In this document: positions 20,140 to 39,501 of the stretch, piece after piece
Position numbering within the stretch: the first letter of the stretch is position 1
How the letters are laid out: each line of letters begins with the position of its first letter
Assembly: GCA_950295325.1 (NCBI GenBank)
Contig: OX485808.1
Location: 42,428,527 to 42,492,526 of the forward strand
Direction: 5' to 3'
Source of the DNA: Polytrichum commune
Lineage: Eukaryota; Streptophyta; Polytrichopsida; Polytrichales; Polytrichaceae
DNA: 64,000 bases
Position numbers and translations under genes: made by a program
The notes under the pieces: generated by a model
Told to the model about the DNA's origin: nothing
The model's input: the letters and a program-made list of their open reading frames with translations, nothing else
Databases searched by the model: none

Positions 20140-20662
20140 ATTGGTAGGTTTATGGCAAGGCTTGTAGTTAAGAAAGATGCTTCAAAAATACATGTGTTGG
20201 GATGAGATTGGACTTTGTGCTCAATAAATAAGTTGGATATAACTTAGATACCCTTCTCAGTTCAAATAGGTAGATGTGAACGTTGATTTCAGGTCGAGCA
20301 AGGATGAATGAAAAGCATCTTCATCTCTAAACTATTGTCCCTTTTCGAAGGTGTTGTGCATGAGGGGTGATCAACTAATCATTTTAACAATGAACTTTTG
20401 TACTTGGTCCTCAACATCACTACCCAAGTTGAAAACCCGATCCATTATACTATATTATAATATAGAATGTACATTTCTTTAAGAAAAAACATTTGACCTT
20501 ATAAATGACATCAGAGGTTCCGAATTGGTCTAGAAGAAGTCACTTCATATGAACTAACCACAAACATATGGGGTGATGTTTTTACAATATCCTCTTTACC
20601 TTGGTAATAGCGGTGGGGCCCAGATCAAAGAGGTGGCGTCTAGGCTTGGCATCGATTCACTA
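19341..20662. other. intergenic stretch with a (GT)n microsatellite
   Basis: No gene recognised. A (TA)n(GT)n microsatellite occupies about 20097-20137. Near 19780-19960 there are two divergent copies of a TTTGAAATGGGCCAAAG / AATGAGCCAAAGTGTGG segment. Confidence 0.5.
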
Positions 20663-20926
20663 CACTGATTATCCCAATTAGTGTGTTTTACTATTTCGGA
20701 GTTACATAGTGCAATATCGTAAAAATCCATAAGGACCAGCGTTTCTTCTCTCTCTGCAATATCGTCTTACTCATAAATTCATTTTTTCCCCTAATGAGTG
20801 TTGCATAGGTTGTTTAGACATTATGAAACATAAATGACTTTGCATGGTAAAAACCACATTCTTGTTAAATAGTTATAGCACTGCGTAACTCCGAATAGTA
20901 ACACACACTAATTGGGATAATCAGTG
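20663..20926. mobile_element. TA-flanked MITE with about 55-bp inverted ends
   Basis: CACTGATTATCCCAATTAG on the left reappears inverted at the right end, and similarity continues through CGGAGTTAC(A/G)(T/C)AGTGC. TA flanks both sides (20661-20662, 20927-20928). The long inverted repeat makes a strong hairpin. No coding capacity. Confidence 0.85.
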
Positions 20927-21044
20927 TAGTGAAGTAAGTTAGAGGTTATTGTATGGTAAGACCCAATATAAAGGGCAATCTTTTGGAGTGCGTAATTATT
21001 GGTTACTACTAGATTTGTACAAGGTGCACATAGAATCACACTTA

Positions 21045-21176
21045 ACAACTAAATATGATACTTAGTGTCATATGGTATTTTATGTCAGTATGGTAACTTC
21101 TCGGATAACACTTCTTATGAATATGTGAACAAATATTGTCATGGATGATGAACGAGTTCATCCATTGGCCAAAACC
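21045..21176 (+). mobile_element. left part of a MITE split by the large transposon
   Basis: The sequence CATATGGTATTTTATG, GAACAAATATTGTCATGG and GTTCATC(C/T)(A/G)TTGGCCAAAACC is collinear with the uninterrupted MITE at 45424-45794 up to the transposon start. The MITE resumes at 39502 (CTACTTTCTCTTGTCA(A/G)CC) and is recognisable to about 39650, after which the right end is lost. Confidence 0.85.
21167..21176. other. target-site duplication, left copy
   Basis: GGCCAAAACC directly before the transposon, repeated at 39492-39501. The related unfilled site in the MITE at 45.5 kb has TTGGCCAAAACCCTAC with one copy. Ten bases is within the 8-11-bp range of Mutator-like elements. Confidence 0.9.
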
Positions 21177-21235
21177 GGGAAACTCAAGTATGTGAGCGTA
21201 GAGCGGAGAGCGGAGAGCGGAGATTGGAGAGCGGA
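21177..21235 (+). repeat. left terminal inverted repeat of the transposon
   Basis: GTATGTGAGCGTAGAGCGGA is followed by GAGCGGA units and then TTGGAGAGCGGA. Relative to the right end it has one extra 7-bp unit before TTGGAG. Further in, CCTATTTCCGTGGAAT (about 21269) matches CCTATTTCCGTGGGAT read inward from the right end, so subterminal sequence is shared too. Confidence 0.85.
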
Positions 21236-22177
21236 AAATTTAGATTTTGTTGGGTAATTTTAGGAGAAGCAGTGCCTATTTCCGTGGAATTAGAGATAGT
21301 TTGAATTCTATATTTGGAAAGGTACCCCCATTCCCGTGGACATAATAACCCAGAATTGTTTGAGAAACCAACGGATCCTATAGGCGTGGAAGATTGCATT
21401 TGTTATCAAACATCTTATAGTATATGTTTTCAAATGTATCATATTAAATTAGGGCTGACGTCACCAAATTGAAATCAAAATACCATACACAAAATATTTT
21501 ATTGGTCAACAAAATGTAGCCAACCTCAAGACTTACAAAAATGGGTAGTTAGTTAAAATAACTATATACTCTAGTTTAGGGCCATCTACACCCTATCTGC
21601 CGGGCATGTCCAATATGGGTAAAATGATCCAAAGAACATGCCATAAAACTCCGTCGCACCATAACAGCCTTCCAATTCAGTCCTTAGCTTAGCCAAAGAC
21701 CTCAAAGACAAATCCCCCAAGTCCAACCTTAGAATCCTCTTGGAAATTTTTGAGGTGACGTGCCGGCTCTTTGAGAACAACATGAATTTCAATTTAAAAA
21801 GTTTGACGAGGTTATGTTCGCGTGCCAAACAAAACTTCCAATTGCTATATAGCAATTGGGATTGGAAGACGGCCAATGTGATTAGTGTGCACAACCATAA
21901 AATAAACCATCCACACTAATAGAAAGTATGGTCCCCCTATAACTAAGATCTCACACTAAGAGCCGAGAGCTAGATTGTTTTGTGACTAGAAGTTAAGAGA
22001 TCCGAACGATGAAGAAAAAATAAAGAATGCAATGCGGGTTGACATATGAATATGAAATAATGGAGAGAAAGAATGAAACTTGCGCCGGATATCAAAAATA
22101 AAACCAACACACAACTTTTATTAAAGCCGGATAACAACAACAAACGGAGTTATAATCTCCAAAACCAAAATGATAAA
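21236..22177. other. left subterminal non-coding region of the transposon
   Basis: Between the inverted repeat and the stop codon of the ParB-methyltransferase gene. It includes the perfect palindrome at 21838-21859 and MITE-like CCACACTAATAG near 21910. I see no gene; 3' UTR and transposase-binding sequence are the likely content. Confidence 0.5.
21838..21859. repeat. perfect 22-bp palindrome
   Basis: CCAATTGCTAT followed by its exact reverse complement, with no spacer. It is unrelated in sequence to the array palindromes. It lies in the left subterminal part of the transposon, and its function is unknown. Confidence 0.8.
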
Positions 22178-25100
22178 CTAAGGGCTTGGAGAACATTCCC
22201 TATCACTCTCCTCACCCTCATTTGCTTCTAACAAGAAAAGATTTCGTGTTCCACGCGAGAAATGACGAACGCGAGGAGGAGATGGGGACTCCGCCTTCGC
22301 AAAACAATCCGCCATTGCACTAGCATACGGGGGAAGCTCAAACGGCTTCGGAGGACTTGAAAACATGTCTCGACGAATGACTGCGACCTCCGCTGGCTCT
22401 CTAAACACCCAAGCAAAAGGATTAGAAACATGATGACACTAGAAAATGAGAATTTGAAATCAAAGCAAACATGGCAAAATATAGAAAGCAAACTTACGCA
22501 CAAAGAAATCCGAATGCCCTCTTGGTCATATTTTGAGGAGGATCAAAGATAGATGTAGACGGTGCGGCAACTGAGCGAGATATACGCGCAGGCTGGGGAT
22601 CGCGCATGGGGAGTAGGAGTGAATTGAAAATGACGGGGTCACTCTCAAGGGCCACAATATGCCGCTCAAGGGAGCGACATGCTGTAATCGAACCACCTAA
22701 AGCAAAGAGAGGTAAAATGTTAGTATGAAAACTAGTCAAGGAAAAATAATGGAAAATTCAAAGTAAGGATGAAGTTGAAAAAGAAGGCGTACCTACACCA
22801 CACTGCCAGTCCATAATAACATCATTCTTGTCGGTGAGAGTAGCGAGAAGGATGGAAAAAAAAACAGGATGCTTCTCACGGGCACCTCGCCAAGGTACCC
22901 CATCACTGCGCATCGTCTGGCTCTTCTCATCGGTGAAGGTATTCAACCATCCATCTCGTTGGAGGTTGTAACCATACTCTTGTATGGCCTCCTCCCGCAC
23001 TCTAAGAACGGAGTTAACACGAACAAGAACTTTGATGTTGAACTTCCGAGTCTGCAACAATGAAAATAAAATTGAATTGAAATGAAATGGAATTGAAATT
23101 GAATTGAAATTGAAATGATAAGCAATACGGAAGGGGAAGAGAGGGAGACTTGCTTACCACTCCAGAGGGAACAACGGGAGATTGGAGGTCTAAATCATTC
23201 ATTCCAAACCAATCTTCCGCGACGTAGAAGTCATAAGTGTGTGCCCAATCGAAAATACTCCTAGAAACACTGGCACTCGCACAATGGGCAAGAACAAGGA
23301 CACCATGATCATAGAGGTTAGATTTCGCAAATGCAAAAAGACACTCATAGTATGATTCATGGAGCTTGTTCCAAGCAGGAACATCGGTGGAGATGTTCGG
23401 CACCGGCAAATTTTCGGGAATGTCGGCGAAGAGCAAATCGAGGCCCTTGTGAGTTGTAGTCGAGGTGTTCACACGGGAATGACCTGCCCCAACCTGCAAT
23501 TGAAACTTCATGAGAAAACAAGAAGGAAAGAAATAAACAAAGCAAAGGAAAAAAAATTGAGAATTGACGAAGGCAAGTATACAAACCTTGGCAATGAACT
23601 CTTGGATGCGGGTATATGCGGGGAGGGGACCTCCGGCAACCTCGGAATCCAGCATTAGTTGAACCATGTCCACATTTTCGATGAGGGTAAGCGTGTTAGT
23701 GGCATCCGAAGAGGTGGCACTGGTATCCAAGAGAGCGGCCTTCCTCTTGCGAGGCAAAGAGAGGAGAGAAGTGCCACTATGAGATGGAGTGGCAAGAGAT
23801 TGTGGATGAAATGCAGATGGAGTAACAGAAGGGGCAAGAGAGGGAGCAACGGAGGGAGCGATAGATGGACTGTGTGGAAGGGTGGGTGGCTCAACCGGGG
23901 TCTTAGAAGCAGACCGAGTGAGAATTTGGGAAGATGCTTGAGTGGCGGTCTTCTTTGCTCTGCCCTTTCTCCTTGGTGCCTTAGGAGGAGGAGGGGGAAG
24001 CTCAACGATGTCAGGGTCCTCCAAGGTAACAATGTTATTATCCAGAGCACTACCCACAAGGCTAGCAAACAAAGCCTTCTCTTCCCCGGGGACAAATCCT
24101 GCAGCACAATCCAAGTACCATCCACCACCCTGCAAGTGCAATTCGGAAAACTTGTTTGTTTGCGCGGTCGTATACACGCAGAGGCTAGAAAAAATATTCA
24201 CCCAGTCCGAGAGGTAGTCCGGCAAGGAAGATGAGGCCAATGCATTCTTCACAACCAATTCTCTCATGATATACCTACATGACAAAACAAGAATGTAAGA
24301 AAACCAACAAAACGAGCAAGAAATGACATTAAGGAGAGGTGCAAAGTGGAGGATAGATGTATTACCGATAGGCTACACGCTTGATAGCGAGAGCCCCCTC
24401 CTCGAACTCCAAGAGATTATCACCTTTGGCAAATGCGATGTCAGGCTTATCGCCGAGATAAGGCTTGAAGGCCTTGTCCCAAAGGACAATCCGCCAATGA
24501 TCAACGTACTCACGAGGGCGCAAGATAGTTTCTGATGCGTCCCAATCAATGTCGACGGAGAGGCTCTCCTCTAAGATCTCAATTTCAACCGCGACTTCTT
24601 TCTCCAACTGCAGAGAAGGAGATGATTAGATATGAGATAAATGGAATAGAGGAAAATGAAAATGAAGAAGGCCGAGGAATGGATTTACTTGAGCCCAGAA
24701 GGACGCCTTGTGTAGCCAGTCGTCCAAAGCCCTCTCCCTCATAGGCTTGTCGACGGGGAACTTGTTATCTAACCTTTCACGAAGGGGGGCGTTCCACCAG
24801 TGAAGCCACTTAGCTTTGAACGAAGCTTCGACCGGGCATGTGATAATTTTTTGCAATTTTTCAATTGTCATGTCCGTCGAAGAGAACTCATTAAAATGAC
24901 GGTCAATCTGTGCACAAAATAAAAATGATTTGAGTTCAAAAGAGTAATAGAATTGAAGAGTGATTTGGATGAATTGCGTTCAAGACTGATTTGAGTTCAA
25001 AAGAGTACCTCATGAAAGAAATCCTCTCCATTGTCAGGGTGTGCAACGGATATGTACTTCTCAAAAGAACGGGCCCGAATACTTTTGATTGTCCTCTCCT

Positions 25101-26378
25101 GGGCCTTGGTCATAACATTCCAAATCTCAGTGGCCGACCTCTCCGCAACGGGTGTGGTCTCACGGTAATGCCTCACTGCAAGGTCTGCTTGAGCCGAAAT
25201 GTCTCTCTGCAAGAAATGACCTTGTGAGTTCATATAATCGGTATGGAAATTATCTATATTGGAAGCTCTAAATGATTGAATGCATAAAACCATACCTTGT
25301 AAAGAAACTTAACGAACACATCCGCGGTCAAGGTGTACCAAGTTGGGCGACTCTCCTTTATCTTCTCGCATGCTTTGTAGTCAGATGGCGATATAAGATC
25401 CTTGAAGGTGGACAACTCTAACCTCCCAAAAGTGCGGATTCGAAGGAGCTTGGCCGGAATGTTTGCCTTGACATAATCATGCTCGGTTGACCTGAGAAAA
25501 AATATGTGAGGAACGTGAGCTGAAAAGAATGGAAAAGAATTGAAACAAAAATGAAAAATAAATGAAAAAAATGAATGAGCTTACCAACTAATGTCGCTCA
25601 TGGCATTGAGGAATATACCTGTGTATCCTCTAGGGTCAACAACAATGCAATCCACCGAGATATGCCAACTCTTGTCATCGGCGTGGTGGTTATTGATGTG
25701 TCTCCACCAAGCGGTGACACGATGATTGCCTTCCCAGACGAAGAACATCTTCCCGGCGAAATGTGCAAGATCCGGATCCTCCTTGAGCTTGGCGTCAAAT
25801 TCTGCGGAGGCCTCTTGCCAGAGAGGGCTCCAAGAGGCCATAATGCCAGGGGGAATGGGGAGGTCCACGGGAACGTCGTTGAAAGAAGACACGTAAAGAA
25901 CCCGATCTCCCTCTCGGTATCCCATTACAAATTCACATTCCAAGCGCTGCACCTCAACCTCACTGATAGGACGGACAAGAGGGAGGGCTCTCAAGCGGCA
26001 TAAAGGAATGGATAAGCGGGACTTACATGTTGGCTTAATCCGAAGGCGTTGGATAACACCAATGGAGTCCTCCTTTTGTGATTTCCGAAGCTCAAGCTCA
26101 CACACCACGGGATCCGTGTCGGCAACTGCTTGAACGGCATCTTCGCTCATTGCGAGAGCCTAACAAAAACACAAACAATAAAACCATGCTTAGAAAGCTA
26201 GAACTCAAAAAACTTGCTTAACAAATTATTCAACAACTATCCAACTCACCTCTACTTGTAATGGGCCCTGCGAATTGAGACTCTCAACCTGCACAGCTTC
26301 AACTTCAACCGCGGGGGCCGCAAGAACAACATCCTCTCCAGATTGGGGTTGCGATTGCGCAACCTGTGAAGAGTCCAT
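22178..26378 (-). CDS. ParB-like domain / DNA methyltransferase fusion protein of the transposon
   Basis: Eleven GT-AG exons on the - strand join without a frame break: 26250-26378, 25585-26159, 25296-25491, 25009-25206, 24689-24907, 24366-24607, 23587-24274, 23158-23493, 22793-23051, 22498-22696, 22178-22400; 1087 residues. Residues about 180-200 read FVWEGNHRVTAWW, the G-x-H-R helix start of ParB/sulfiredoxin-fold domains. A helical middle follows, then a basic PRRKGRAKK stretch and APSVAPS-type linker (about 600-680). Residues 766-1000 have a permuted N6/N4-methyltransferase order: LDLLFADIPEN (773-776, where the family has DPPY), a VLVLAHC strand, then DWQCGVGGSITACRSLERHIVALESDP (942-970), equivalent to DxFxGSGT...GRxxxGxExD. 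The degenerate DIPE motif may mean weak catalysis or DNA binding only. It may have extra 5' exons beyond the array (see findings). Confidence 0.85.
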
Positions 26379-26550
26379 ATCCTAAGAACATGGAGAAAAT
26401 GAGAATTTCACAAAGAAAAGTCAATAACTTCGTAACTATAAAGAAACAAATCCTCACAAAAACAATACAAGGCCGAGAGCAAACTACAAATGGAAATGGC
26501 CGAATGCTAAGTCAAGTGCTCAACTCTAGCACTAACCTACCTACGAATGA

Positions 26551-27208
26551 GAGGCCTCGGATCCGAGGCCTCTTTTCCTACCTCCTCCTTATGCACTACC
26601 CAAAAGAAAAAGGCCGAGAGAAATCTTATGTGAACATAGCAGTTTGACTTTTCAAGCACATACATTGTCTTCAAAATGAGGCCTCGGATCCGAGGCCTCT
26701 TCACAAACCTCCTACTCATGTAGTACCCAAAACAAGAAGGCCGAGAACAATCTTACACGAACATAACATTTTGATTTTTCTAGCATAAAATTGACACAAA
26801 CATGAGGCCTCGGATCCGAGGCCTCTTCCCAAAACACATACTTATTCACTTCCCAAAACAAGAAGGCCGAGAGGATTCGAAAATGAACATAAGATTTTCA
26901 TTTTTCAAGCACATACCTTGACACAAAAATGAGGCCTCGGATCCGAGGCCTCTTCACAAAGTACCTACTTATGCACTACCCAAAACAAGAGGGCCAAGCG
27001 CATTCAAAAATGAACATAACATTTTAACTTTTCATGCACATACCTTGACACAAAAATGAGGCCTCGGATCCGAGGCCTCTTCCGAATGCCCCTCCTTATG
27101 AAATACATACTACAGAAAATGGCCGAGAGAATTAAAAAATGAACCTAACATTTTCATTTTTCAAGCACACAACCTGACTCAAAAATGAGGCCTCGGATCC
27201 GAGGCCTC
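26551..27208. repeat. array block A: six sites at about 127 bp
   Basis: Sites begin at 26551, 26678, 26804, 26931, 27058 and 27187. Spacers share ACAAGAAGGCCGAGAG, CATTTTCATTTTTCAAGC and ACACAAAAATGAG. Block C repeats the same unit. Confidence 0.9.
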
Positions 27209-27264
27209 TTCCAAATGCCCCTCCTTGATGATTTTAAAACCTAACCAATTTACTTGTTACATGG

Positions 27265-27750
27265 CTCACGGGTGTTCACCCGTGAGGTTCACATTTGATG
27301 ATGTTCCAGGGGAGGTCACTCCATTGCCAAGTTGCATCACCAAAATGGGTCAAAATTTTCTCAAATTTTTTTGGGACGTAGATATACATGATATCTATTA
27401 CGGAGTAAAATATCATGACCAAATTTGATGACCATATTTTTCTAGAAAACATACCATTTCTACCTAGAATGACGCAGAATTCAACTAAAACAATTACTAG
27501 AAAAAATGAAGATGACAAAAAATTTCAAAAAAATATACAAAAGATATAATCAATAGTTATGAATATAGAGAAAAAAAATCATAATTTTTAAAAATATTTC
27601 ACATGGAGACATCTCCCCGTGATGATGCTAAATCCTACCCAAGTTACCTGTTACATGGCCCACGGGTGTTCACCCGTGGGGCACACATTTGATGATGTTA
27701 AAACCTAACCAAATTACTTGTTACATGGCCCACGGGTGTTCACCCGTGGG
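27265..27750. repeat. three CACGGGTG hairpin units within the array
   Basis: Inverted repeats with a TT loop lie at 27265-27286, 27659-27680 and 27729-27750, and a fourth at 30846-30867. Each is preceded by TACTTGTTACATGGC. The first has CTC...GAG in place of CCC...GGG, a matched change on both arms. These units replace the usual palindrome in this part of the array. Confidence 0.85.
27306..27621 (-). mobile_element. hAT-type MITE inserted in the array
   Basis: The termini CCAGGGGAGGTCACTCCATTG and ...CATCTCCCCGTG match the MITEs at 41582-41977 and 58216-58626. It is flanked by an 8-bp duplication with one mismatch (ATGATGTT 27298-27305, ATGATGCT 27622-27629). It is inserted in a repeat unit whose intact relative follows at about 27690. 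Confidence 0.85.
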
Positions 27751-27872
27751 GCACAAGGCAGAGAGCAAGGAACCAAAAAAGCAGGAAAGTTGACATTCTA
27801 TTAGTTTGAGAAATCAAGAACCTCACCTCTCTCAAAACCCTACCTTTCACATACTCAAACTTACACAAATAG

Positions 27873-28485
27873 GAGGCTTCGGATCCGAGGCCTCTTCCCC
27901 TAGCTGGTTCTTATGCACTACAGAAAACAAGACAAGACCGAGAGCAATTGATGTGCACATAACATTTTGATTTTTCAAGCACAAACCTACCCGAAATAAG
28001 AGGCCTCGGATCCGAGGCCTCTTCCTATGGCTCCCACTTATGCACTACACAATAGAAGAAATGGCCGATAGCAAGGAATCAAGAAAGCAAGAAAGTTGAC
28101 ATTCCATTAGTTTGAGAAATCAAGAACCTCGCCTCTCTCAAAACCCTACCTCTCACATACTCAAACTTACACAAATATGAGGCCTCGGATCCGAGGCCTC
28201 TTCCCCTAGCTGCTTCTTATGCACTACACAAAACAAGACAAGGCCGAGAGCAATTGATGTGCAAATAACATTTTGATTTTTAAAGCACAAACCTACCCAC
28301 AAATAAGAGGCCTCGGATCCGAGGCCTCTTCCTATGGCTCCCACTTATGCACTACACAATAGAAGAAATGGCCGATAGCAAGGAATCAAGAAAGCAAGAA
28401 AGTTGACATTCCATTAGTTTGAGAAATCAAGAACCTCGCCTCTCTCAAAACCCTACCTCTCACATACTCAAACTTACACAAACAA
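27873..28485. repeat. array block B: two 307-bp higher-order units
   Basis: Sites at 27873, 28000, 28179 and 28307 alternate 127/179/128/179 bp. The long spacer holds AAGAAAGCAAGAAAGTTGAC and CTCTCTCAAAACCCTACC, exactly as in block E. Confidence 0.9.
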
Positions 28486-29270
28486 GAGGCCTCGGATCCG
28501 AGGCCTCTTCACAAACCTCCTACTCATGTAGTACCCAAAACAAGAAGGCCGAGAGTAATCTTACACGAACATAACATTTTGATTTTTCTTAAATAAAATT
28601 GACTCAAACATGAGGCCTGGGATCCGAGGCCTCTTCCCAAAACACATACTTATTCACTACCCAAAACAAGAAGGCCAAGAGCATTCAAAAATGAACATGA
28701 GATTTTCATTTTTCAAGCACATACCTTGACACAAAAATGAGGCCTCGGATCCGAGGCGTCTTCACAAAGTACCTACTTATGCACTACCCAAAACAAGAAG
28801 GCCAAGAGCATTCAAAAATGAACATAAGATTTTCATTTTTCAAGCACATACCTTGACACAAAAATGAGGCCTCGGATCCGAGGCCTCTTCACAAAGTACC
28901 TACTTATGCACTACCCAAAACAAGAAGGCCAAGAGCATTCAAAAATGAACATAAGATTTTCATTTTTCAAGCACATACCTTGACACAAAAATGAGGCCTC
29001 GGATCCGAGGCCTCTTCACAAAGTACCTACTTATGCACTACCCAAAACAAGAAGGCCAAGAGCATTCAAAAATGAACATAAGATTTTCATTTTTCAAGCA
29101 CATACCTTGACACAAAAATGAGGCCTCGGATCCGAGGCCTCTTCCGAATGCCCCTCCTTATGAAATACATACTACAGAAAATGGCCGAGAGAATTCAAAA
29201 ATGAACCTAACATTTTGATTTTTCAAGCACAAACCTTGACACAAAAAAGAGGCCTCGGATCCGAGGCCTC
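28486..29270. repeat. array block C: seven sites at about 127 bp
   Basis: Sites begin at 28486, 28612, 28739, 28866, 28993, 29120 and 29249. The spacers from 28761 to 29119 are almost identical, pointing to recent unit-by-unit duplication. Confidence 0.9.
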
Positions 29271-30765
29271 TTCCCAAAGCTCCTACTTATGCACTTAACA
29301 AAACACATTTCCCCCCCCCCCGCAGCTTCAGACCTCCATATCTTCCACGTGTGGTCTCCAAATCTAACAATCAACCACTCTATCGTCATCTACGTGAAAT
29401 GTAGATGCCGATGGACACCTCACTTGCCCCATTTGGGCAAAAATCAAGGAAGTTATGCCTGTTTAAACATTCGCAGTCCCGGGAGCCACTCCCAGGGGAC
29501 TGCTGATCGAGGGCACTAAAAGGAGGCCTCGGATCCGAGGCCTCATTTTCAAACTAGTGTACATACTCAAAAACAAGCAAAGTGCCTCATTCATACAAGC
29601 TATACGTTGAATCAAAAAACCTCAAGTGGCCTCGGCTGAGAGGCCTCGGATCCGAGGGCTCACACACAAAGTAATTTACGTACTCCAAACCAACCATAGT
29701 GCCTCATCCGTACACTAGTTTTGGAACACATAAAAGAGGCCTCGGATCCGAGGCCTCTTCTCCTAGCTTCTACATATGCACTCAACAAAACACATTTCCC
29801 CCCCCCGGCAGCTTCAGACCTCCATATCTTCCACGTGTGGTCTCCGAATCTAACAATCAACCACTCTATCGTCATCTACGTGAAATGTAGATGCCGATGG
29901 ACACCTCACTTGCCCCATTTGGGCAAAAATCAAGGAAGTTATGCCTGTTTGAACATTCGGAGTCCCGGGAGCCACTCCCTGGGGACTGCTGATCGAGGGC
30001 ACTAAAAGGAGGCCTCGGATCCGAGGCCTCATTTTCAAACTAGTTTACATACTCAAAAACAAGCAAAGTGCCTCATTCATACAAGCTATACGTTGAATCA
30101 AAAAACCTCAAGTGGCCTCGGCCGAGAGGCCTCCGATCCGAGGCCTTACACACAAACTAGTTTACATACTCAAAACCAACCAAAGTGCCTCTTCCGTACA
30201 CTTGTTTTGGAACACATAAGAGAGGCCTCGGATCTGAGGCCTCATTCACAAACTAGTTTACATACTCAAAACAAACCAAAGTGCCTCATCCGTACACATG
30301 TTTTGGAACACATAAAAGAGGCCTCGGATCCGAGGCCTCATTCACAAACTAGTTTACATCCTCAAAAACAAGCAAAGTGCCTCATTCATACAAGTTATAC
30401 TTTGAATCAAAAAACCTCAAGTGGCCTCGGCCGAGAGGCCTCGGATCCGAGGCCTTACACACAAACTAGTTTACATACTCAAAACCAACCAAAGTGCCTC
30501 TTCCGTACACTTGTTTTGGAACACATAAAAGAGGCCTCGGATCCGAGGCCTCATTCACAAACTAGTTTACATACTCAAAACCAACCAAAGTGCCTCTTCT
30601 CTACACTTGTTTTGGAACACATAAAAGAGGCCTCGGATCCGAGGCCTCATTCACAAACTAGTTTACATCCTCAAAAACAAGCAAAGTGCCTCATTCATAC
30701 AAGTTATACTTTGAATCAAAAAACCTCAAGTGGCCTCGGCCGAGAAGCCTCGGATCCGAGGCCTC
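29249..30765. repeat. array block D: 96/117-bp units and a duplicated 487-bp block
   Basis: Spacings 274, 117, 96 recur as 273, 117, 96 (29249-29735 and 29736-30222), so a 487-bp block is duplicated; 96- and 117-bp units follow to 30744. Each 274-bp spacer holds CCACGTGTGG and an inverted repeat (GCAGTCCC 29473-29480 with GGGACTGC 29496-29503). The 117-bp spacers add a second small palindrome, CTCGGCCGAG. The units are multiples of three, which keeps one + frame open from about 30093 to 30905; I do not consider it a gene. Confidence 0.85.
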
Positions 30766-30989
30766 ACACACAAACTAGTTTACATACTCAGAACCAACCA
30801 AAGTGCCTCATAAAGACATGCCTAACCAAGTTACTTGTTACATGGCCCACGGGCGTTCGCCTGTGGGGCACAAGGCAGAGAGCAAGGAATCAAAAATGGA
30901 AGTAAGTTGACATTCCATTAGTTTGAGAAATCAAGAACCTCGCCTCTCTCAAAACCCTACCTCTCACATACTCAAACTTACACAAATAT

Positions 30990-33160
30990 GAGGCCTCGGA
31001 TCCGAGGCCTCTTGCCCTAGCTCGTTCTTGTGCACTACACAAAACAAGACAAGGCCGAGAGCAATTGATGTGCACATAACATTTTGATTTTTCAAGCACA
31101 AACCTACCCACAAATAAGAGGCCTCGGATCCGAGGCCTCTTCCTATGGCTCCCACTTATGCACTACACAATAGAAGAAATGGCCGAGAGCAAGGAATCAA
31201 GAAAGCAAGAAAGTTGACATTCCATTAGTTTGAGAAATCAAGAACCTCGCCTCTCTCAAAACCCTACCTCTCACATACTCAAACTTACACAAATAAGAGG
31301 CCTCGGATCCGAGGCCTCTTCCCCTAGCTCCTTCTTATGCACTACACAAAACGAGACAAGGCCGAGAGCAATCGATGTGGACAAAACATTTTGATTTTTC
31401 AAGCACAAACCTACCCACAAATAAGAGGCCTCGGATCCGAGGCCTCTTCCTATGGCTCCCACTTATGCACTACACAATAGAAGAAATGGCCGAGAGCAAG
31501 GAATCAAGAAAGCAAGAAAGTTGACATTCTATTAGTTTGAGAAATCAAGAACCTCGCCTCTCTCAAAACCCTACCTCTCACATACTCAAACTTACACAAA
31601 TAAGAGGCCTCGGATCCGAGGCCTCTTCCCCTAGCTCCTTCTTATGCACTACACAAAACGAGACAAGGCCGAGAGCAATCGATGTGGACAAAACATTTTG
31701 ATTTTTCAAGCACAAACCTACCCACAAATAAGAGGCCTCGGATCCGAGGCCTCTTCCTATGGCTCCCACTTATGCACTACACAATAGAAGAAATGGCCGA
31801 GAGCAAGGAATCAAGAAAGCAAGAAAGTTGACATTCCATTAGTTTGAGAAATCAAGAACCTCGCCTCTCTCAAAACCCTACCTCTCACATACTCAAACTT
31901 ACACAAATAAGAGGCCTCGGATCCGAGGCCTCTTCCCCTAGCTCCTTCTTATGCACTACACAAAACGAGACAAGGCCGAGAGCAATCGATGTGGACAAAA
32001 CATTTTGATTTTTCAAGCACAAACCTACCCACAAATAAGAGGCCTCGGATCCGAGGCCTCTTCCTATGGCTCCCACTTATGCACTACACAATAGAAGAAA
32101 TGGCCGAGAGCAAGGAATCAAGAAAGCAAGAAAGTTGACATTCCATTAGTTTGAGAAATCAAGAACCTCGCCTCTCTCAAAACCCTACCTCTCACATACT
32201 CAAACTTACACAAATAAGAGGCCTCGGATCCGAGGCCTCTTCCCCTAGCTCCTTCTTATGCACTACACAAAACGAGACAAGGCCGAGAGCAATCGATGTG
32301 GACAAAACATTTTGATTTTTCAAGCACAAACCTACCCACAAATAAGAGGCCTCGGATCTGAGGCCTCTTCCTATGGCTCCCACTTATGCACTACACAATA
32401 GAAGAAATGGCCGAGAGCAAGGAATCAAGAAAGCAAGAAAGTTGACATTCCATTAGTTTGAGAAATCAAGAACCTCACCTCTCTCAAAACCCTACCTCTC
32501 ACATACTCAAACTTACACAAATAAGAGGCCTCGGATCCGAGGCCTCTTCCCCTAGCTCCTTCTTATGCACTACACAAAACAAGACAAGGCCGAGAGCAAT
32601 TGATGTGCACATAACATTTTGATTTTTCAAGCACAAACCTACCCACAAATAAGAGGCCTCGGATCCGAGGCCTCTTCCTATGGCTCCCACTTATGCACTA
32701 CACAATAGAAGAAATGGCCGAGAGCAAGGAATCAAGAAAGCAAGAAAGTTGACATTCCATTAGTTTGAGAAATCAAGAACCTCGCCTCTCTCAAAACCCT
32801 ACCTCTCACATACTCAAACTTACACAAATAAGAGGCCTCGGATCCGAGGCCTCTTCCCCTAGCTCCTTCTTATGCACTACACAAAACGAGACAAGGCCGA
32901 GAGCAATCGATGTGGACAAAACATTTTGATTTTTCAAGCACAAACCTACCCACAAATAAGAGGCCTCGGATCCGAGGCCTCTTCCTATGGCTCCCACTTA
33001 TGCACTACACAATAGAAGAAATGGCCGAGAGCAAGGAATCAAGAAAGCAAGAAAGTTGACATTCTATTAGGTTGAGAAATCAAGAACCTCACCTCCCTCA
33101 AAACCCTACCTCTCACATACTCAAACTTACACAAATATGAGGCCTCGGATCCGAGGCCTC
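30990..33160. repeat. array block E: homogenised 307-bp higher-order repeat
   Basis: Fifteen sites alternate 128 and 179 bp (30990, 31118, 31297, 31425 ... 32960, 33139), giving about seven 307-bp units. Neighbouring units differ at only a few bases, for example the AATCGATGTGGAC / AATTGATGTGCAC variants, and the latter type reappears at 32595 inside the run, as expected from gene conversion or unequal exchange. Confidence 0.95.
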
Positions 33161-33326
33161 TTGCCCTAGCTCGTTCTTGTGCACTACACAAAACGAGACA
33201 AGGCCGAGAGCAACATGATGTGCACATAACCTTTTGATTTTTCAAGCACAAACATACCTTTCCTAACATGTTCCTAAACCCAAATCAAGACAAGGCCGAA
33301 AGCAAGTCAAGCTGATATTCCAAATA

Positions 33327-34347
33327 CTATGAGAAATCAAGGTGATAGAAAGCAAAAACGTTGGCGAACATAGCTTGGCCGAGATCCCGACACCTTACCA
33401 GAATTTGGAGTATGCCCTCCACTGAAGCCCCTATATTGGCGCCACTATCTTCCGAGGTCCCGTCCTCTGTCGGCGATATTGGAGTGCTTCTCGAATCTCC
33501 GAGGTTTACTTGCGCCATTCCTCTCCCGCGGCCACGCCCTCGCCTTGATGTTTGTTGTGTTCCGCCCGCCTTGCTTCGCAGAAATCTTGAAGCAGGGGTC
33601 ACAACATCCACACTTAGGGTTTCTGCGCATGGGTCTCCTCCTTCAGCTCTTTCGCGGCCTCCCAACAAATTTGATTTCAGATCTTCCTTTGCCGCTTTCC
33701 TCTTGGACGCCTTCATTTTTTCTCTTGCTTGAATCGTTGGTTGTCCCGACATCGGTTCTCGCTCTTCTAACGCCTTCTCAATTTGTTGTGCTACCTCCTT
33801 GTTGTCTTCTTCATAGATATTTCCACTATCTCCACTCCCCCCCTCTTCCTATATTTAAGATAAAACAATGTTTATAACAATGATGACAAACCATAATATC
33901 TAAAAGAAAAGTTGTTTCACAGTTGAATATGTTCTACCATTTTCATTATGTGCTCAAACAACTGAATATATGGAGAACCCGAAGAATACGTACGACACTT
34001 GTAGAGTTTGTCTCTTCGCGTGAGTCCTCTTGGATGCTGTCGTTTCCCAACTCCTCCACTTCTGCCATTGGTTGCGCTTTACTTCCGTCCGCCTCTTCTA
34101 CAATCGGTGATAAATGAAAAGGCCGAATCCCACAGTCTAACCTCCACGAAGGTTTCCGCAGGTCCTTAATGCTTTGGCTCAAATCCTCGGGCGTCCCACG
34201 GCCCTCAATTGGCGCTTTCCTTGCCTGTGACTTTTGTGTCCTCACTGTCTTTCTCTTCTTATCAGTGTAATGTGTAGACGATCGCCTCCTCTTCTTTTTC
34301 TTAGATGGTTCCGTTGTCGGAGGTTGTGAATTGCCTATTTCCTTCAT
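33327..34347 (-). CDS. basic, low-complexity transposon protein (or N-terminal exons of ParB-methyltransferase)
   Basis: Exon 33994-34347 (118 codons, ATG at 34347) splices in phase 0 (GTC|GTACGT, ATATAG|GAAGAG) to an exon starting at 33848. If read through, the frame stops at 33327 and gives 291 residues. Visible features: a nuclear-localisation-like SKKKKRRRSS near the N-terminus, a KKRKTVR stretch, acidic segments, and an RRGRGRGRG tract. No domain is recognised. At 33399 a good donor (CTG|GTAAGG) sits in phase 0, so the second exon could instead continue across the palindrome array into the ParB-methyltransferase gene. It is divergently arranged with the transposase gene. Confidence 0.65.
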
Positions 34348-34666
34348 GTGTTCAACCCTCCCGCAATTCAGACCTATTCGCTCTATTTCCTTTCCACAAC
34401 CTCACCACATCAAACTCACACATTGGAAAGAAAGTGAGCAATCGCATTCTTCTCAGTATATAATTGCAATACCTCCCGATGGGAGGCGCGCTTTACTATC
34501 TGACAACCATCTTTGTAATTAGGGGTATCTTTTTTTAGGATGCCTGACAGTTTTGTCTCCTTCCTGATATTCATGCGTATTTGTTTATAACTTCATCGTC
34601 ATCACCATTCTCCTTCTCTATGCATCTTTGCATCTTTGTTCCTTCACGTTTGCTTTCTCTGCCTTC
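34348..34666. promoter_or_regulatory. probable bidirectional promoter of the transposon
   Basis: A 319-bp gap separates the divergent start codons of the basic-protein gene (34347, -) and the transposase (34667, +). It contains AGTATATAATTG (about 34457), which could serve as a TATA box. Assigned by position; no transcription start is known. Confidence 0.5.
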
Positions 34667-37600
34667 ATGGCTTCCACCTCAATTCTTCCTCCCGTCTCTG
34701 AGATGGCCGAACTTCGTTCACATGGCATCGGGGTCCCTATTATATTCCCCATTGGTGCACAAGGTATTGTTGTTGTCTCGGAGCTTCATCTTAGCATTAG
34801 GTTCTCTTTGAAAGCTAGTACAATATGGGTAGAGCGTGAGATCTACCATCCTGATACTGGATTGCTCGTTCATACCTTCCATGAGACCTCCAAGATAACT
34901 GACAATGGCAATGTAGTGTGGGAGCTTGGCGCGGGAAAGTATAGGGTTTGTGGCTGGCCAGATTCTCAGATGGAAGTGTCAACAGAAATCCTTCCTCCTC
35001 TTCGATCATCCACTGTTGCCTTTAGCACACCCCCCGTAATAAGCGTCAAGACCGAGCCTGGTGTAGACAACGTTATAGACTTGTCTGATTCTTCGAGTGA
35101 AGATGTACCAGTGTATAAGGTTGCTGTCCATGATTCCCCTCATTTGTTTCCCTTTGCATCCTACATAACGCCTTCTCCATCTAGCTCTGTCCCTTCAACT
35201 CCTTCGGTCCCTACGTCTAAACCTCCTCAAACTATTGTTCAATGTCTTCGTCGTCTTGGCTCTATGCCCGGTAGTAAGAACGTCCTCAAGAAAATAGATT
35301 ACGATAAAATCAAAATCCAAGAAGTTAATCACCTTCCCCCTCGTTTCGATGGCACCCAGTTATTTGTCCTCCCTGCAGCAGAAGTCTCTTCATCTCAAAC
35401 CAGGGCCAAGTCGTTGGACGGCATGGACAAGCAATATGATGGCCATGTTTGGACTAAGACTCAAACCACCAACATTACAAACGACGTTGGCCTTGCATTT
35501 CGTTCCTCTACCTGTGTTGGCCATCTCCAATGCCAAAACCCGAGTTGTGATTACCTTCAACGCGCCCATCGTACCTCTAAGGTCAATGACACAGAATTTG
35601 AAGGTTTCACTAAAGATCCTTTCCGTCTCTCTGGCATTGTGCCATCCGGATCTACTCTTGTCTGCAGGATCTGTAAAGAGCCTCCCAAATGCATTGCACT
35701 ATGCGAGGCCAAAATCTTCTACGTCCATGGGAAGGAGTCATCCCAAAGAGCCTGCATTCATCTCGGTTCTCATCAACATCCAGTGAAGGTTGGAGACTGC
35801 AGAGACAGTCGGAAGCGTATCAATGCACTTCTTGAGGAGCACGTTGAACGTACGCCTCAAGCCACCCACAGCAAGATCGTCCTTGAAGCTAGCAAGGACA
35901 TTGTTGGTGAGTTTCTCCTTTCTGGCGATAATGACACACACCGTCTCTTCTCTTTAAAAGAGCTTGAACCTGTTTTTGAGAGCTGTAGAGAGTTGAATTC
36001 CCCAAACCTTCGCTCTAAGGTTACCTCTTTCAAATATTTGCGGAGGTTTGGTGTTATGGATGGCATCGCAAAGCTCCGAGGCGTTAGCAATTGGGCCTAC
36101 GTCCAACGGAACCAATTCCCAGGACAAGGTGACGATACAGACAAGGTGTTCGTCTTCAAGATGTCGGAGGTTGGTCCTGGAAGTGGAGTGGATTTGGTTC
36201 GTCGGATGCAACCGGGTGGGGACCTGGAGAGCGCGTGGATGATGTCCGATCACGTGAAGCGGGTCAAAGGGTGGACCACCATGGCCGCTCATGTGTACAA
36301 TGGGACTTATCAACGGGTCATGACCATTTCATGTTGTGATTTCCAATCGGAGGATAAGGATGCCCAAGTTCTCTTCTGGCAGAACCTCAACCACGTCATG
36401 GCCCGACACGGTATCCCACATCCAAACTTTATAGGCTTCATGGCGGACAGTGCCCAAGCCAATTGGAACGCTGTTCGCATTGTATATGGTTCGGGGGATC
36501 CCAAAGTTCCAATGGAGGGTCGTGAGCGCACTTGTTTTTTCCATTGGAAACAATCGCTCGAAAAACATACGAAATCGTATATAAAGCATGAGTTACAAGA
36601 CCAACATAGACATCTTTGCCTTCAATATCGAAATGCGTCATCTATGGAAGAGGCTGAGACTAGGTACCTAGCTATCAAGGCTTGGTGGGCGTCATCGAAT
36701 TGTACAAGTGAGGACGGTCTCAAGCATCTTCAGCTCTGGCTTGCTTTTTGGCACTTCCGCTACCTTCAATGGGGTGGTTTCATGGAACTGGTACATCTCC
36801 TTCATAATTCATTATTGGTTTTTCTTGGATTCGATTTCCTCTCTCTGTACATTTATATTAATACTTGATTTCTCCAATCAGGAAAAGGTTTTAACCCAAG
36901 ACCAATTGGCCGAGATGCCGTCGTGCAATCTTGCGGAGTCCGTCCACAACAAATGGCTTCAAGCCTCCGGCAACAAGGGTGGAGATCTATACGTGGCTAC
37001 GGTTGACGACTACATTCGCGCCTTCTTACAAGTTGTTGCATACTACCAGTTCCTTAAAGGTGGAATTGGCGGAGATGGTCCAAGCAAAGAAGAACTAAAG
37101 CTCAGGGGTGCTCAACGTCGAGCTCAGCGTACTGGCGACCCCACAGTGTTGCAGAAGGTCTTGCTTGACATGTCCGGTGGGGAAGAATTTTGCACTCGCG
37201 ATCCACACCTTGAGGGCGCCGAGGTGTTTGGATCGCAGAAGCGAAGATCAGACACTCCAATTGGTGATGATGGCGAGACCCACCGCCCCGATACCGTGAA
37301 CTTCTCTCGCCCTCCCCCCGGTAAGCGTGTCACTCGATCTCAACCAGAAACACTACCCACTATCATTGAGGAGTCTTCCCCCTCTGTACAAGAGGTTCAA
37401 GTGCCTTCACCTGCAGGACTTGGTTTCCAGCGTGTCACTGCCGTACAAGAAACCAAAGTAGATGTCTCTCTTTGGCATATTGCCCGCATACCCTATACGT
37501 CTGGGAAGTCTTGTTGGGCTAATCATGCGGGCACGAAGAAGAAGTGCACCGCAAGAATCGTCACTAATAATAAGAGCGTCCCTGCGCCGACCTACACCGG

Positions 37601-38339
37601 TATGTGGCATCATTACAAACTCCAATCTATGAAGCGCACGGACTTTGTCTTTTGCCCCGACGACATTGAGCGTTGCGTGAAGGGCCCTCGTCGGAAATGG
37701 GTCATGCCGTTCTCTGCTCATGACCAGAAGCCTCCTATTCCCCCAATCTGGCCCGTGAAGATTGGTACCAACCTCACCCGCTCGGATATCTTCGCCCTTG
37801 AGAACGCAGGTTTTCAACTCCCACCAAAGGAGCGCATCACACCGACTCAACTCTTCACCAACTCTGCTCCCCCGCTGGATATGTCTGGAATCCGTGTTCC
37901 AGAAAACCCCGACATGATCCCTCCGACAAGATTGTCCAAGCTTGTTCGGCGATCCAGTAGCGCACCTTCGGCAAAGCAGAGGCAGATGGTGGCCTCTGCT
38001 GAAGCTATGCATGGTACCGTTATGAAGTTAACTATGATCCCTCAACCGGGATTTGGTTGCATTATCACACTGCAGTCCAAATCAGAACCCCAACCACCGA
38101 TCTACCAAGTGACAGTCAGTTCTCTTCCAGAGTGCAACTGCGCATTTTTCTTGGATATGATTTCCAAGTTCAGCCGCAAACGAAATTCTTATTTGAATTG
38201 TAAGCATTTGTATTACATTTTCATCAAGGTTTCTAATTTGGATGCGGAAGTGAATTTGTTCATTCACGCCCCGACATTTAGCTTCAACGAAGTCAAACTC
38301 ATCCTCGAAGGGGGTCTTTTGACAAAGTCTACTTCTTAG
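34667..38339 (+). CDS. Mutator-like (MULE) DDE transposase
   Basis: Two exons, 34667-36790 and 36882-38339, join in phase 0 over a 91-bp intron (CTG|GTACAT, AATCAG|GAAAAG): 1193 residues. The opening ATG is the first in frame; the extension upstream lacks one. In order: an N-terminal region ending in VKTEP (127-131) and VIDLSDSSSED (136-146), which look like a SUMO-acceptor site next to a SUMO-interacting motif; a Cys/His cluster (C283, C289, C294, C333, C336, C342, C346, C363 and HLGSHQH) resembling WRKY/GCM/FLYWCH-type DNA-binding fingers of MULE proteins; an RNase-H-like core with GFMADSAQANW (Asp593) and the MULE hallmark RTCFFHW (C623-x2-H626); and a C-terminal SWIM-type zinc motif (CNC ... 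CKH, about 1125-1150). First Asp and final Glu of the triad are not fixed with certainty. It would cut and join the element's ends in the nucleus. Confidence 0.88.
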
Positions 38340-38500
38340 GATTTATCTCAGCCTAGCAGTACTTTGGGCTATGATATATGTGTCCATTTCTGGACCTCTT
38401 GTGAAGCAATAATTGATTGATATAATAAAGGTATAATCTCAATGATTATTTTTATTTGCTTCAAAATTTTGTATTACAATGCTTCCTATGTCTATCAACT

Positions 38501-38968
38501 CTATTTCCGTTTTGCATACTTCTTAGATGATTGCGAGGGAGGTGGACCCGGTCGAAGCAAATCCATATAAGAAATTGTCTTATCTCTCTTTCGATCCTTC
38601 AGCGGAAGATGATGCGGCGTCATTCCTCTCATCCGTTCGCGAAATGAAAGAGACTTCGAAGATTCCCCTTCCACCTTCACCTCCTCCTCCGTTTCGTTCG
38701 ATTTGTCTTCATCTAAATCAACATCCTTCTCCGGCACATCTTCCTGCCTTTTTTCCTTTTTCTCATATTGTTTTTGCTCCTCCTGCACCCTCCACCTCCA
38801 TGCTTGTGTAGACTGCGAAAATGGAGTCAGCTCGTAGTCATCACTACTTTGATTTCCAGCAGCAAACTCAAATTCCGGCGATGGATTAAATGGAATATGA
38901 GGATCTCCTAGACTTCTAATTTCCTTCTCCCATCCTAATCCAGCAAACATGTCTCTCTCATCTCCCAT
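38501..38968 (-). CDS. small charged protein of the transposon, function unknown
   Basis: A single open frame of 155 codons starting at an ATG (38968) and converging on the transposase gene, with 161 bp between the two stops. Composition is strongly charged: QEEQKQYEKKEKRQED, DEDKSNETEEEVKVEG, then a basic end SSKKYAKRK that could be a nuclear signal. A coiled coil is likely in the middle. No family is recognised. Its place inside the inverted repeats and its intact frame make an accessory transposition protein plausible, but that is inference. An extension to a TTG at 38989 is possible but less likely. Confidence 0.65.
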   Translation of the reverse strand: MGDERDMFAGLGWEKEIRSLGDPHIPFNPSPEFEFAAGNQSSDDYELTPFSQSTQAWRWRVQEEQKQYEKKEKRQEDVPEKDVDLDEDKSNETEEEVKVEGESSKSLSFRERMRGMTPHHLPLKDRKRDKTISYMDLLRPGPPPSQSSKKYAKRK

Positions 38969-39422
38969 TGTGTGCAACTGTATATACAATTATGTTGGGT
39001 ATGAGTCCAATTTATAATCTATTCGGCCACAAACGATAATTGCTAAAGTCCAAGCTATAGAATAGACTCACATATAAGACAAAGAGAAAAGTGATGAATA
39101 AAAACCAAGCAAGTTTATTATTTTGATTCCTTTGTATATTGATTGACTCATTCTTCAATTATACCAATCTCAAAAAATCCATTTTCATTGATTTTTCTTG
39201 TAGTCATCATTGGTTTTAATAATTCAACCACCTCACGGTTTCCAAACTAAATGAGACCATTTCAAATTCAGGGTTTTTATTTTATTTTATGACCTATACA
39301 TCCCACGGAAATAGGTCCAATTTTTTTACTATTATTGTCAAATTCTGGAATATTCTTGGTATATTCTTGGCTATTTTGGAATATCCTAATTTTAGTCTGA
39401 CAAGTTTACTATTTTTATTTCC
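38969..39422. other. right subterminal non-coding region of the transposon
   Basis: Presumed promoter and leader of the small charged protein, then AT-rich sequence with ATATTCTTGG repeated at about 39350 and 39361. It shares the CCTATTTCCGTGGGAT block (reverse strand, about 39300) with the left end. Confidence 0.5.
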
Positions 39423-39491
39423 TCTACGCTCTCCGCTCTCCGCTCTCCAAATCTCCGCTCTCCGCTCTACGCTCACATACAAGTGTCGTCC
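39423..39491 (-). repeat. right terminal inverted repeat of the transposon
   Basis: Reverse complement of the left end, with GAGCGGA units on both sides of an ATTTGGAG block. The last 12 bases match the left terminus only partly. Confidence 0.85.
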
Positions 39492-39501
39492 GGCCAAAAC
39501 C
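39492..39501. other. target-site duplication, right copy
   Basis: GGCCAAAACC, identical to 21167-21176, after which the interrupted MITE resumes. Confidence 0.9.

Follow-up and report, generated by a model that had tools for sequence, protein, structure and literature searches.

Lineage-specific palindromes paired with the N-terminal half of a ParB-like/methyltransferase-like cargo protein in a MULE-like transposon of Polytrichum commune

Accessory genes that encode a ParB-like domain together with a DNA methyltransferase domain (ParB-MTase genes) have already been reported in transposons of algae (PMC12477816, as far as its accessible text goes) and are, as transposon cargo, a known kind of gene. 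Here we analyzed such a gene in a stretch of 64,000 nucleotides from Polytrichum commune (contig OX485808.1, positions 42,428,527 to 42,492,526; hereafter the window), where a ParB-like/methyltransferase-like gene at 22178-26378 on the minus strand is the cargo of a Mutator-like (MULE-like) transposon, and where lineage-specific palindromes are paired with the N-terminal half of the encoded protein. According to the same text, Sola1-1_Ec32 of Ectocarpus encodes a 1104-aa protein with ParB-like and N4/N6 DNA methyltransferase domains, and its authors suggest that a ParB-MTase protein binds to the transposon that carries it and modifies this DNA. The two systems resemble each other in protein length (1104 aa in comparison to 1087 aa here), in a description as ParB-like plus N4/N6 methyltransferase-like, in a gene opposite in strand to the transposase, and in the size of the DNA transposon, which is about 20 kb in Ectocarpus. 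They differ in that Sola1-1_Ec32 has a Sola1 transposase and belongs to a brown alga, whereas the element studied here is MULE-like and belongs to Polytrichum commune, the comparison being one of descriptions only, and the accessible text of PMC12477816 does not mention palindrome pairing. The sequence-only reading of the window had called the gene domesticated by a mobile element, which is misleading, since the gene is transposon cargo of a sort in print for algae.

The nearest working model for the accessory protein appears to be VANC of the VANDAL MULEs, whose tandem target motifs lie in introns and upstream regions and change together with the protein (PMC5735166, accessible text). Both systems combine a MULE accessory protein with arrays of short motifs in introns or upstream of genes, and in both the motif and the protein change together. 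In contrast to the palindromes described here, the VANC21 motif YAGTATTAY is not palindromic, the accessible text mentions no methyltransferase core, and the function of VANC was proven by experiment, whereas that of the present protein is deduced from sequence. The bacterial and phage ParB-methylase fusions (L036; phage L041 and L042; PMC5512222, seen in part) likewise have an N-terminal ParB domain and a C-terminal permuted N6/N4 methyltransferase, and in L036 the segment ENIHRKDMTWQEQ resembles, by eye only, NAM[SN]DI[SN]WSTEH of the accessory protein; L036 differs in having a canonical DPPY, about 440 aa and a single open frame, and a profile comparison of the ParB halves gave no significant match. 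L036 itself, a true ParB-methylase with DPPY, lies on one of two small contigs that carry bacterial-type ParB genes (C12 with L036 and C23 with L037), and both contigs are probably contaminants. With the Mutator-like elements as described in the accessible text of PMC6446971, the present element shares a 10-bp target duplication, a putative DDE transposase with CxxH insertion and a SWIM-like zinc motif, and it differs in its ends of about 22 bp, its length of 18.3 kb and a transposase without Pfam MULE match. Among the papers listed in searches of a collection with few subscription journals, we saw no other one on this gene type in MULEs or bryophytes.

Our results showed that four N-terminal lineages of the accessory protein (A to D) are paired with four palindromes, which are situated next to the gene or within its introns. 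For scoring this pairing, 27 stretches were taken, each including about 1.6 kb of upstream sequence (about 3 kb for two C copies), and type was assigned by the identity of exon 2 to that of the window, i.e., 71% or more for A, 61% to 67% for B and 58% for C. All 13 A-type copies carried A sites and no B site, and 11 of the 12 B-type copies carried B sites and no A site, one of these (L065) having only two sites; in the twelfth (L071), the arms that flank three CTCGGTTCCGAG cores are different ones. A or B sites were present in none of the two C-type copies, both of which had the C palindrome; among further C copies, the upstream C palindrome was perfect in three of four and altered in the fourth. 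D palindromes were found at both D copies, near which there is no transposase among the matches listed. Other loci with A sites are the window, C1a, C2a, L014 and L015, and other loci with B sites are L016, L019, L020, L023 and the chimeras X and Y described below, while the C-type L021 and L022 have neither A nor B sites. For L012 and L013 no sites were seen within about 0.5 kb upstream, and A sites appeared once a longer upstream stretch was taken.

The A-type array of the window comprises 46 sites at 26551-33160 (three or fewer mismatches of GAGGCCTCGG-NN-CCGAGGCCTC), distributed over repeat units of 127 bp, 307 bp and other lengths. Forty-three of these sites are non-overlapping and 34 are perfect copies of the 22-bp palindrome GAGGCCTCGGATCCGAGGCCTC, and a search across the window found no A-type site outside the stretch between the accessory gene and the transposase. 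In the genome searched (407.8 Mb, 64 contigs), the number of exact sites was 1903 for the A palindrome GAGGCCTCGGATCCGAGGCCTC, 1998 for the B palindrome ACCCTCTCGGNNCCGAGAGGGT, 84 for the C palindrome AATCCCACGGATCCGTGGGATT and 16 for the D palindrome GGGTGYCGTTTACGRCACCC, which is counted 8 times on each strand because it is not fully symmetric; the reversed control gave 0 sites for each, and one shuffle per locus in 15 loci gave no A, B or core site. The four palindromes have a CG-N4-CG centre in common. In B-type copies GACCCTCTCGG-NN-CCGAGAGGGTC is present upstream as well as within an intron, and L019 and L020 carry it downstream of the gene too; C-type copies carry AATCCCACGGATCCGTGGGATT about 100 bp ahead of the start codon, together with farther-upstream arrays at 64-bp spacing; and D-type copies, 53% identical to C, carry arrays of GGGTGYCGTTTACGRCACCC. 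For A, B and C the listing covered the first 50 sites each. An exon 2 of the matching type was at most 10 kb away for 49 of the 50 listed A sites and for 41 of the 50 listed C sites; 26 of the 50 listed B sites were beside a B-type exon 2, and 22 were at a locus where transposase and methyltransferase matches are listed and an exon 2 is not. Ten of the 16 D sites were at the two D-type exons. As a side observation, every second unit of a D-type array (L079, 2050-3100) seems to have lost its CpGs, both of which read CA there, whereas the units in between have the palindrome. A C-type array at C4:55128443-55129358, without a C-type exon 2 nearby among the matches listed, may be either a remnant or a non-autonomous element.

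To which part of the element the palindrome belongs is indicated by two chimeric elements, X (L017-L018-L026) and Y (L024-L025-L029), each about 16-17 kb long with both ends and its own 10-bp duplication (X GGTAAGGCGT, Y ATAAAATTAA, both read by eye). Their transposase (77-93% identity, with the core at 92% and 95%) and their methyltransferase part (82-86%) are like those of the A element, the N-terminal half is B-like (63-69%), and they hold 19 and 16 B-type sites, respectively, and no A-type site. Furthermore, five B-palindrome elements (X, Y, L068, L073 and C1:16461488) have transposases 92-96% identical to that of the window, and the B loci L067 and L071 have transposases 84-89% identical to it; the lineage of the transposase is thus no predictor of palindrome type, and the palindrome goes with the N-terminal half rather than with the transposase or the methyltransferase part. 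Synonymous divergence (dS) differs between the two halves in the same manner. Between the window and L012 it is 0.8-0.9 in the N-terminal half and drops to 0.3-0.4 in the C-terminal one; between the window and L024 it is saturated in the N-terminal half, 0.5 in exon 7 and 0.42 in the methyltransferase part; and between L019 and L024 it is about 1.3-1.4 in the N-terminal half and saturated in the methyltransferase part. This contrast confirms that lineages have exchanged the two halves, the breakpoint being near residue 520. Four copies were excluded from the swap argument, as the distance to the closest transposase in the list is 13-15 kb for L058, L061 and L076 and about 26 kb for L077. C1a (L008-L009), considered as a further transposase swap, was dropped because the 85% identical transposase is at a distance of 14 kb and the homology is broken within the copy's own transposase. 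In both X and Y a large intron of the accessory gene is packed with 64-bp repeats.

The main caveat is linkage, because the array borders the N-terminal exons, and co-inheritance by linkage could produce the pairing. The arrays may, in that case, be functionless tandem repeats, an explanation which agrees with repeats that are tandem, vary in number from copy to copy and adjoin the N-terminal exons, and with the fact that most sites of the window (32 of the 43 non-overlapping ones) are on one repeat group with alike flanks. However, eight sites are on a second group (three degenerate sites differ), whose flanks are 37-42% like those of the first group's 31 sites (random mean 29%, 95th percentile 37%), and despite these unlike flanks the palindromes of both groups are 98.5-100% intact; L019 and L020 likewise have the B palindrome in common though their site flanks are just 36% alike. 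Both arms of the palindrome also change jointly, with symmetry kept in four different sequences. In addition, CpGs are intact in 89 of the 92 positions of the 46 A sites in comparison to a CpG ratio of 0.47 in the remaining array, a count that is inflated since the sites were chosen by likeness to a CpG-bearing consensus. Plain linkage between functionless repeats and the N-terminal half is, in our judgment, unlikely.

The accessory gene as first read is real. A splice-site dynamic programme reproduced the ten introns and 1087 residues of the sequence-only reading, with the ATG at 26378 and the stop at 22178, and gave 11 exons (26378-26250, 26159-25585, 25491-25296, 25206-25009, 24907-24689, 24607-24366, 24274-23587, 23493-23158, 23051-22793, 22696-22498 and 22400-22178) and 10 GT-AG introns once an extra in-frame 93-nt intron was taken out. 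The motifs named by that reading were located in the product, i.e., GNHR at 187-190, CGVGGS at 945 and the acidic ExD as LESD at 964, with DIPEN at 773; the description of the introns as all in phase, on the other hand, was in error, since the phases are 0, 2, 0, 0, 0, 2, 0, 0, 1 and 2, although the frame is open across all joins. For comparison, 13 spliced models were used, consisting of the window and 12 further copies obtained by protein-guided spliced alignment, which share 38-91% identity with the window protein depending on the region. Nine of the ten intron positions (all except the first) coincide, with a tolerance of three residues, in 11 or more of the 13 models, and this recurrence in related copies excludes a chance gene model. 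Four models (window, L012, L021 and L022) are free of stops and frameshifts; intron 9 is missing in the models of L017 and L024, the L016 model is wrong at two introns, and L021 has an additional 975-nt insertion and a model truncated by the end of the locus. The ratio of nonsynonymous to synonymous divergence (dN/dS), calculated with the nine models without frameshift, was 0.06 for the ParB-like part, 0.07 for the middle, 0.30 for exon 7 and 0.16 for the methyltransferase part between the window and L012, so that between lineages the accessory gene is under purifying selection.

The methyltransferase-like half has its core in exons 8-10 (22498-23493, minus strand), where DIPEN at the position of motif IV is followed by DWQCGVGGS, the S-adenosylmethionine (AdoMet) motif I, in the permuted C-terminal place. 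A 7-sequence profile of the METHYLTRANSFERASE half matched DpnA (5hfj, 5hek) with an E value of 7e-4 in the motif X-I region. The family phrog_18293 (methyltransferase) was matched by all seven members (best 6e-6) and Pfam N6_N4_Mtase by two of the seven (best 1.4e-4), with an E value of 0.12, under the curated cut-off, for the window's own sequence. By hhalign against nine phage, viral-contig and bacterial enzymes, the E value was 2.7e-4 and the probability 41%, with 5.3% or less for seven other profile pairs. The results thus support a putative N6/N4-methyltransferase core in permuted order, as the sequence-only reading had proposed. The catalytic motif IV, (D/N/S)PP(Y/F/W), was not found at its place in the 13 spliced models, where D[IVM]P[EDK] is read, once with N for D, a place located by order and context with no significant alignment behind it. 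Catalysis is doubtful in view of this replacement of DPPY, and with the AdoMet motif kept, AdoMet binding without normal catalysis is possible.

These features bear on whether the protein is a working N6/N4 DNA methyltransferase whose main role is to mark its own palindromes. Such self-methylation would agree with an AdoMet motif that is conserved and under selection, with the DpnA-type profile matches, and with the suggestion in the accessible text of PMC12477816 that proteins of this kind bind and modify their own transposon. It is nevertheless improbable given the D[IVM]P[EDK] of the spliced models and the palindrome centres, whose bases vary by lineage around the common CG-N4-CG and therefore have no adenine in common.

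A further explanation is that it is the transposase which binds the palindromes, the ParB-like/methyltransferase-like gene being unrelated cargo. Arrays of repeats bound by the transposase (subterminal repeats) are known in other DNA transposons, and the array of the window borders the transposase side of the element too. Yet the chimeras carry a different palindrome beside a transposase of 77-93% identity, as do the five B-palindrome elements with transposases 92-96% identical to that of the A element; moreover, the arrays of the window element are internal, more than 5 kb from either end, and B copies have arrays inside the introns of the accessory gene as well. We regard this explanation as quite unlikely. 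That the palindromes are RNA or DNA hairpins (a small-RNA source or cruciform) instead of protein sites is very improbable, for although the 22-bp palindromes are perfect and arrays in introns would be transcribed, the genes on the two sides of the A-type array are divergent, a loop is absent from the palindromes, and hairpins do not predict a pairing of lineages with a protein half.

The ParB-like motifs are found in exon 2 (25585-26159, minus strand), with GNHR at aa 187-190 and SDISW from aa 231, in a region without profile support. GNHR is invariant in all 13 models, and GxxR after a hydrophobic strand and before a helix is what we take to be a ParB/Srx signature, weak by itself. Searches with this half gave no family in Pfam, just two unnamed families in PHROGs, each matched by a single member of the set (E values of 0.07 and 0.11), and only an unrelated protein by PDB profile (0.7). 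Against 12 fetched ParB domains, hhalign gave a probability of 0.1%, and in hmmsearch with the same domains the 25 top-scoring stretches were without exception shuffled or reversed copies, with none of the 13 real proteins among them. The AlphaFold models were too poor for use, with predicted local distance difference test (pLDDT) scores of 42 for the ParB exon (Foldseek best E value 2.9) and 39 for the methyltransferase region read contiguously through the in-frame intron; Foldseek with both models gave no match below an E value of 0.7, and scans of viral contigs using both domains found no relative. Of the two matches that the sequence-only reading named as support, only that to an N6/N4 methyltransferase was obtained, with a motif IV other than DPPY; the N-terminal half can be called ParB-like by motif only. 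A bacterial or phage descent of the accessory gene appears plausible by analogy. Overall, that first interpretation is partly supported.

The plant has a large MULE-like transposon family that was active recently, and the accessory gene is its cargo, in agreement with the earlier placement of this gene inside a transposon. The 18.3-kb element of the window extends from 21177 to 39491, as judged from where near-identity to three copies ends (on the left at about 21177 for each of them, on the right at 39491 for two and already at 35937 for the remaining one), and is flanked by the 10-bp duplication GGCCAAAACC at 21167-21176 and 39492-39501. Imperfect terminal inverted repeats of about 22 bp are at 21177-21198 (plus strand) and 39470-39491 (minus strand). 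The C2 copy is flanked by CCGAGTTTCT, and these two copies must have transposed as units, each having its own duplication. Duplications of 8-11 bp, the MULE range, were tested; the window, the C2 copy, X and Y have one of 10 bp, and none was found at the C4 copy. The transposase, of about 1193 aa, is encoded on the plus strand at 34667-38339 (exons 34667-36790 and 36882-38339), with D, D, CxxH and E and a C-terminal CxC...CxH, which we presume to be the DDE-type residues with CxxH and a SWIM-like motif, respectively; all are kept in a lineage with 76% core identity, and the zinc motif CNC...CKH was spotted by eye in all four aligned copies. Pfam gave no MULE match for the transposase and the PDB search nothing useful, and its assignment as MULE-like follows from the conserved residues together with the 10-bp duplication. 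It is on the opposite strand to the accessory gene and in the same element, about 8.3 kb away rather than immediately adjacent. The family is present in high copy number, with at least 150 genome matches of exon 2 at 58-100% identity (150 scored of 1270 candidates), at least 253 of the methyltransferase exons and at least 141 of the transposase core (141 of 1676 candidates). An Aux/IAA gene, of a family specific to plants, was matched at one place of the genome (two exons; the named controls were prokaryotes), which suggests a land plant or near relative, perhaps a bryophyte. Other parts of the element are a 162-aa charged open reading frame (ORF) at 38504-38989 on the minus strand, 88% identical in the two chimeric elements, and two charged ORFs at 33330-34401 on the same strand, possible exons of a third gene, for which tblastn against the chimeric elements found no match; both regions are without convincing database match, and an Rfam search gave no match. 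Just left of the element, a 40-nt inverted repeat at 20656-20695 and 20894-20933 (98% complementary, 198 nt apart) is possibly a small non-autonomous insertion.

In general, we consider that there is about an even chance that the accessory protein is a self-recognising, VANC-like protein bound to the palindromes of its own element. The N-terminal half, i.e., the ParB-like region and the following part to about residue 520, would be the sequence-reading module and would bind the palindromes as a dimer, and the site arrays, in type C together with the site located some 100 bp ahead of the ATG, would be a private address of the element. The bound protein may keep the element expressed or unsilenced, and perhaps aid transposition, as VANC does for the Arabidopsis VANDALs, while the methyltransferase-like half may modify the arrays or, considering the altered motif IV, be a scaffold that binds AdoMet or contacts bases and does not methylate. 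More tentatively, and with somewhat less than an even chance, the family may represent a transposon-borne system of self-recognition in which the N-terminal half diversified with its private palindromes into at least four specificities, halves, arrays and transposases were swapped as modules, and the array-bound protein, with no DNA methylation of the conventional sort, marks the element as self, prevents its silencing or licenses it to transpose.

Besides linkage, several observations weigh against self-recognition. Five of the 27 stretches (L058, L059, L063, L064 and L076) are longer cuts of L012, L013, L022, L021 and L016, and five of the 13 A copies, at 98-99% identity to the window exon, are not independent. 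Among the matches listed, one of the 50 A sites and two of the 50 B sites are isolated, nine of the 50 C sites, on C4, are without a listed C-type exon 2, and six of the 16 D sites are not at the D-type exons. The protein itself has a motif IV without DPPY and a ParB fold supported by no profile or usable model. Finally, recent copy pairs show weaker constraint (dN/dS of 0.33-0.66 for L014-L015 and 0.36-0.96 for L021-L022), as expected for decaying copies.

The pairing of lineage-specific palindromes with the N-terminal half goes beyond the sequence-only reading. It makes a candidate target of a ParB-MTase cargo protein visible in the sequence, where the accessible text of PMC12477816 names none, and the natural swaps, together with four halves and four palindromes, make the pairing directly testable. 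If self-recognition is true, the family would be a further case of the VANC principle, in which a private pair of protein and motif evades silencing, built from quite different protein parts, and it would be a source of new sequence-specific DNA-binding modules.

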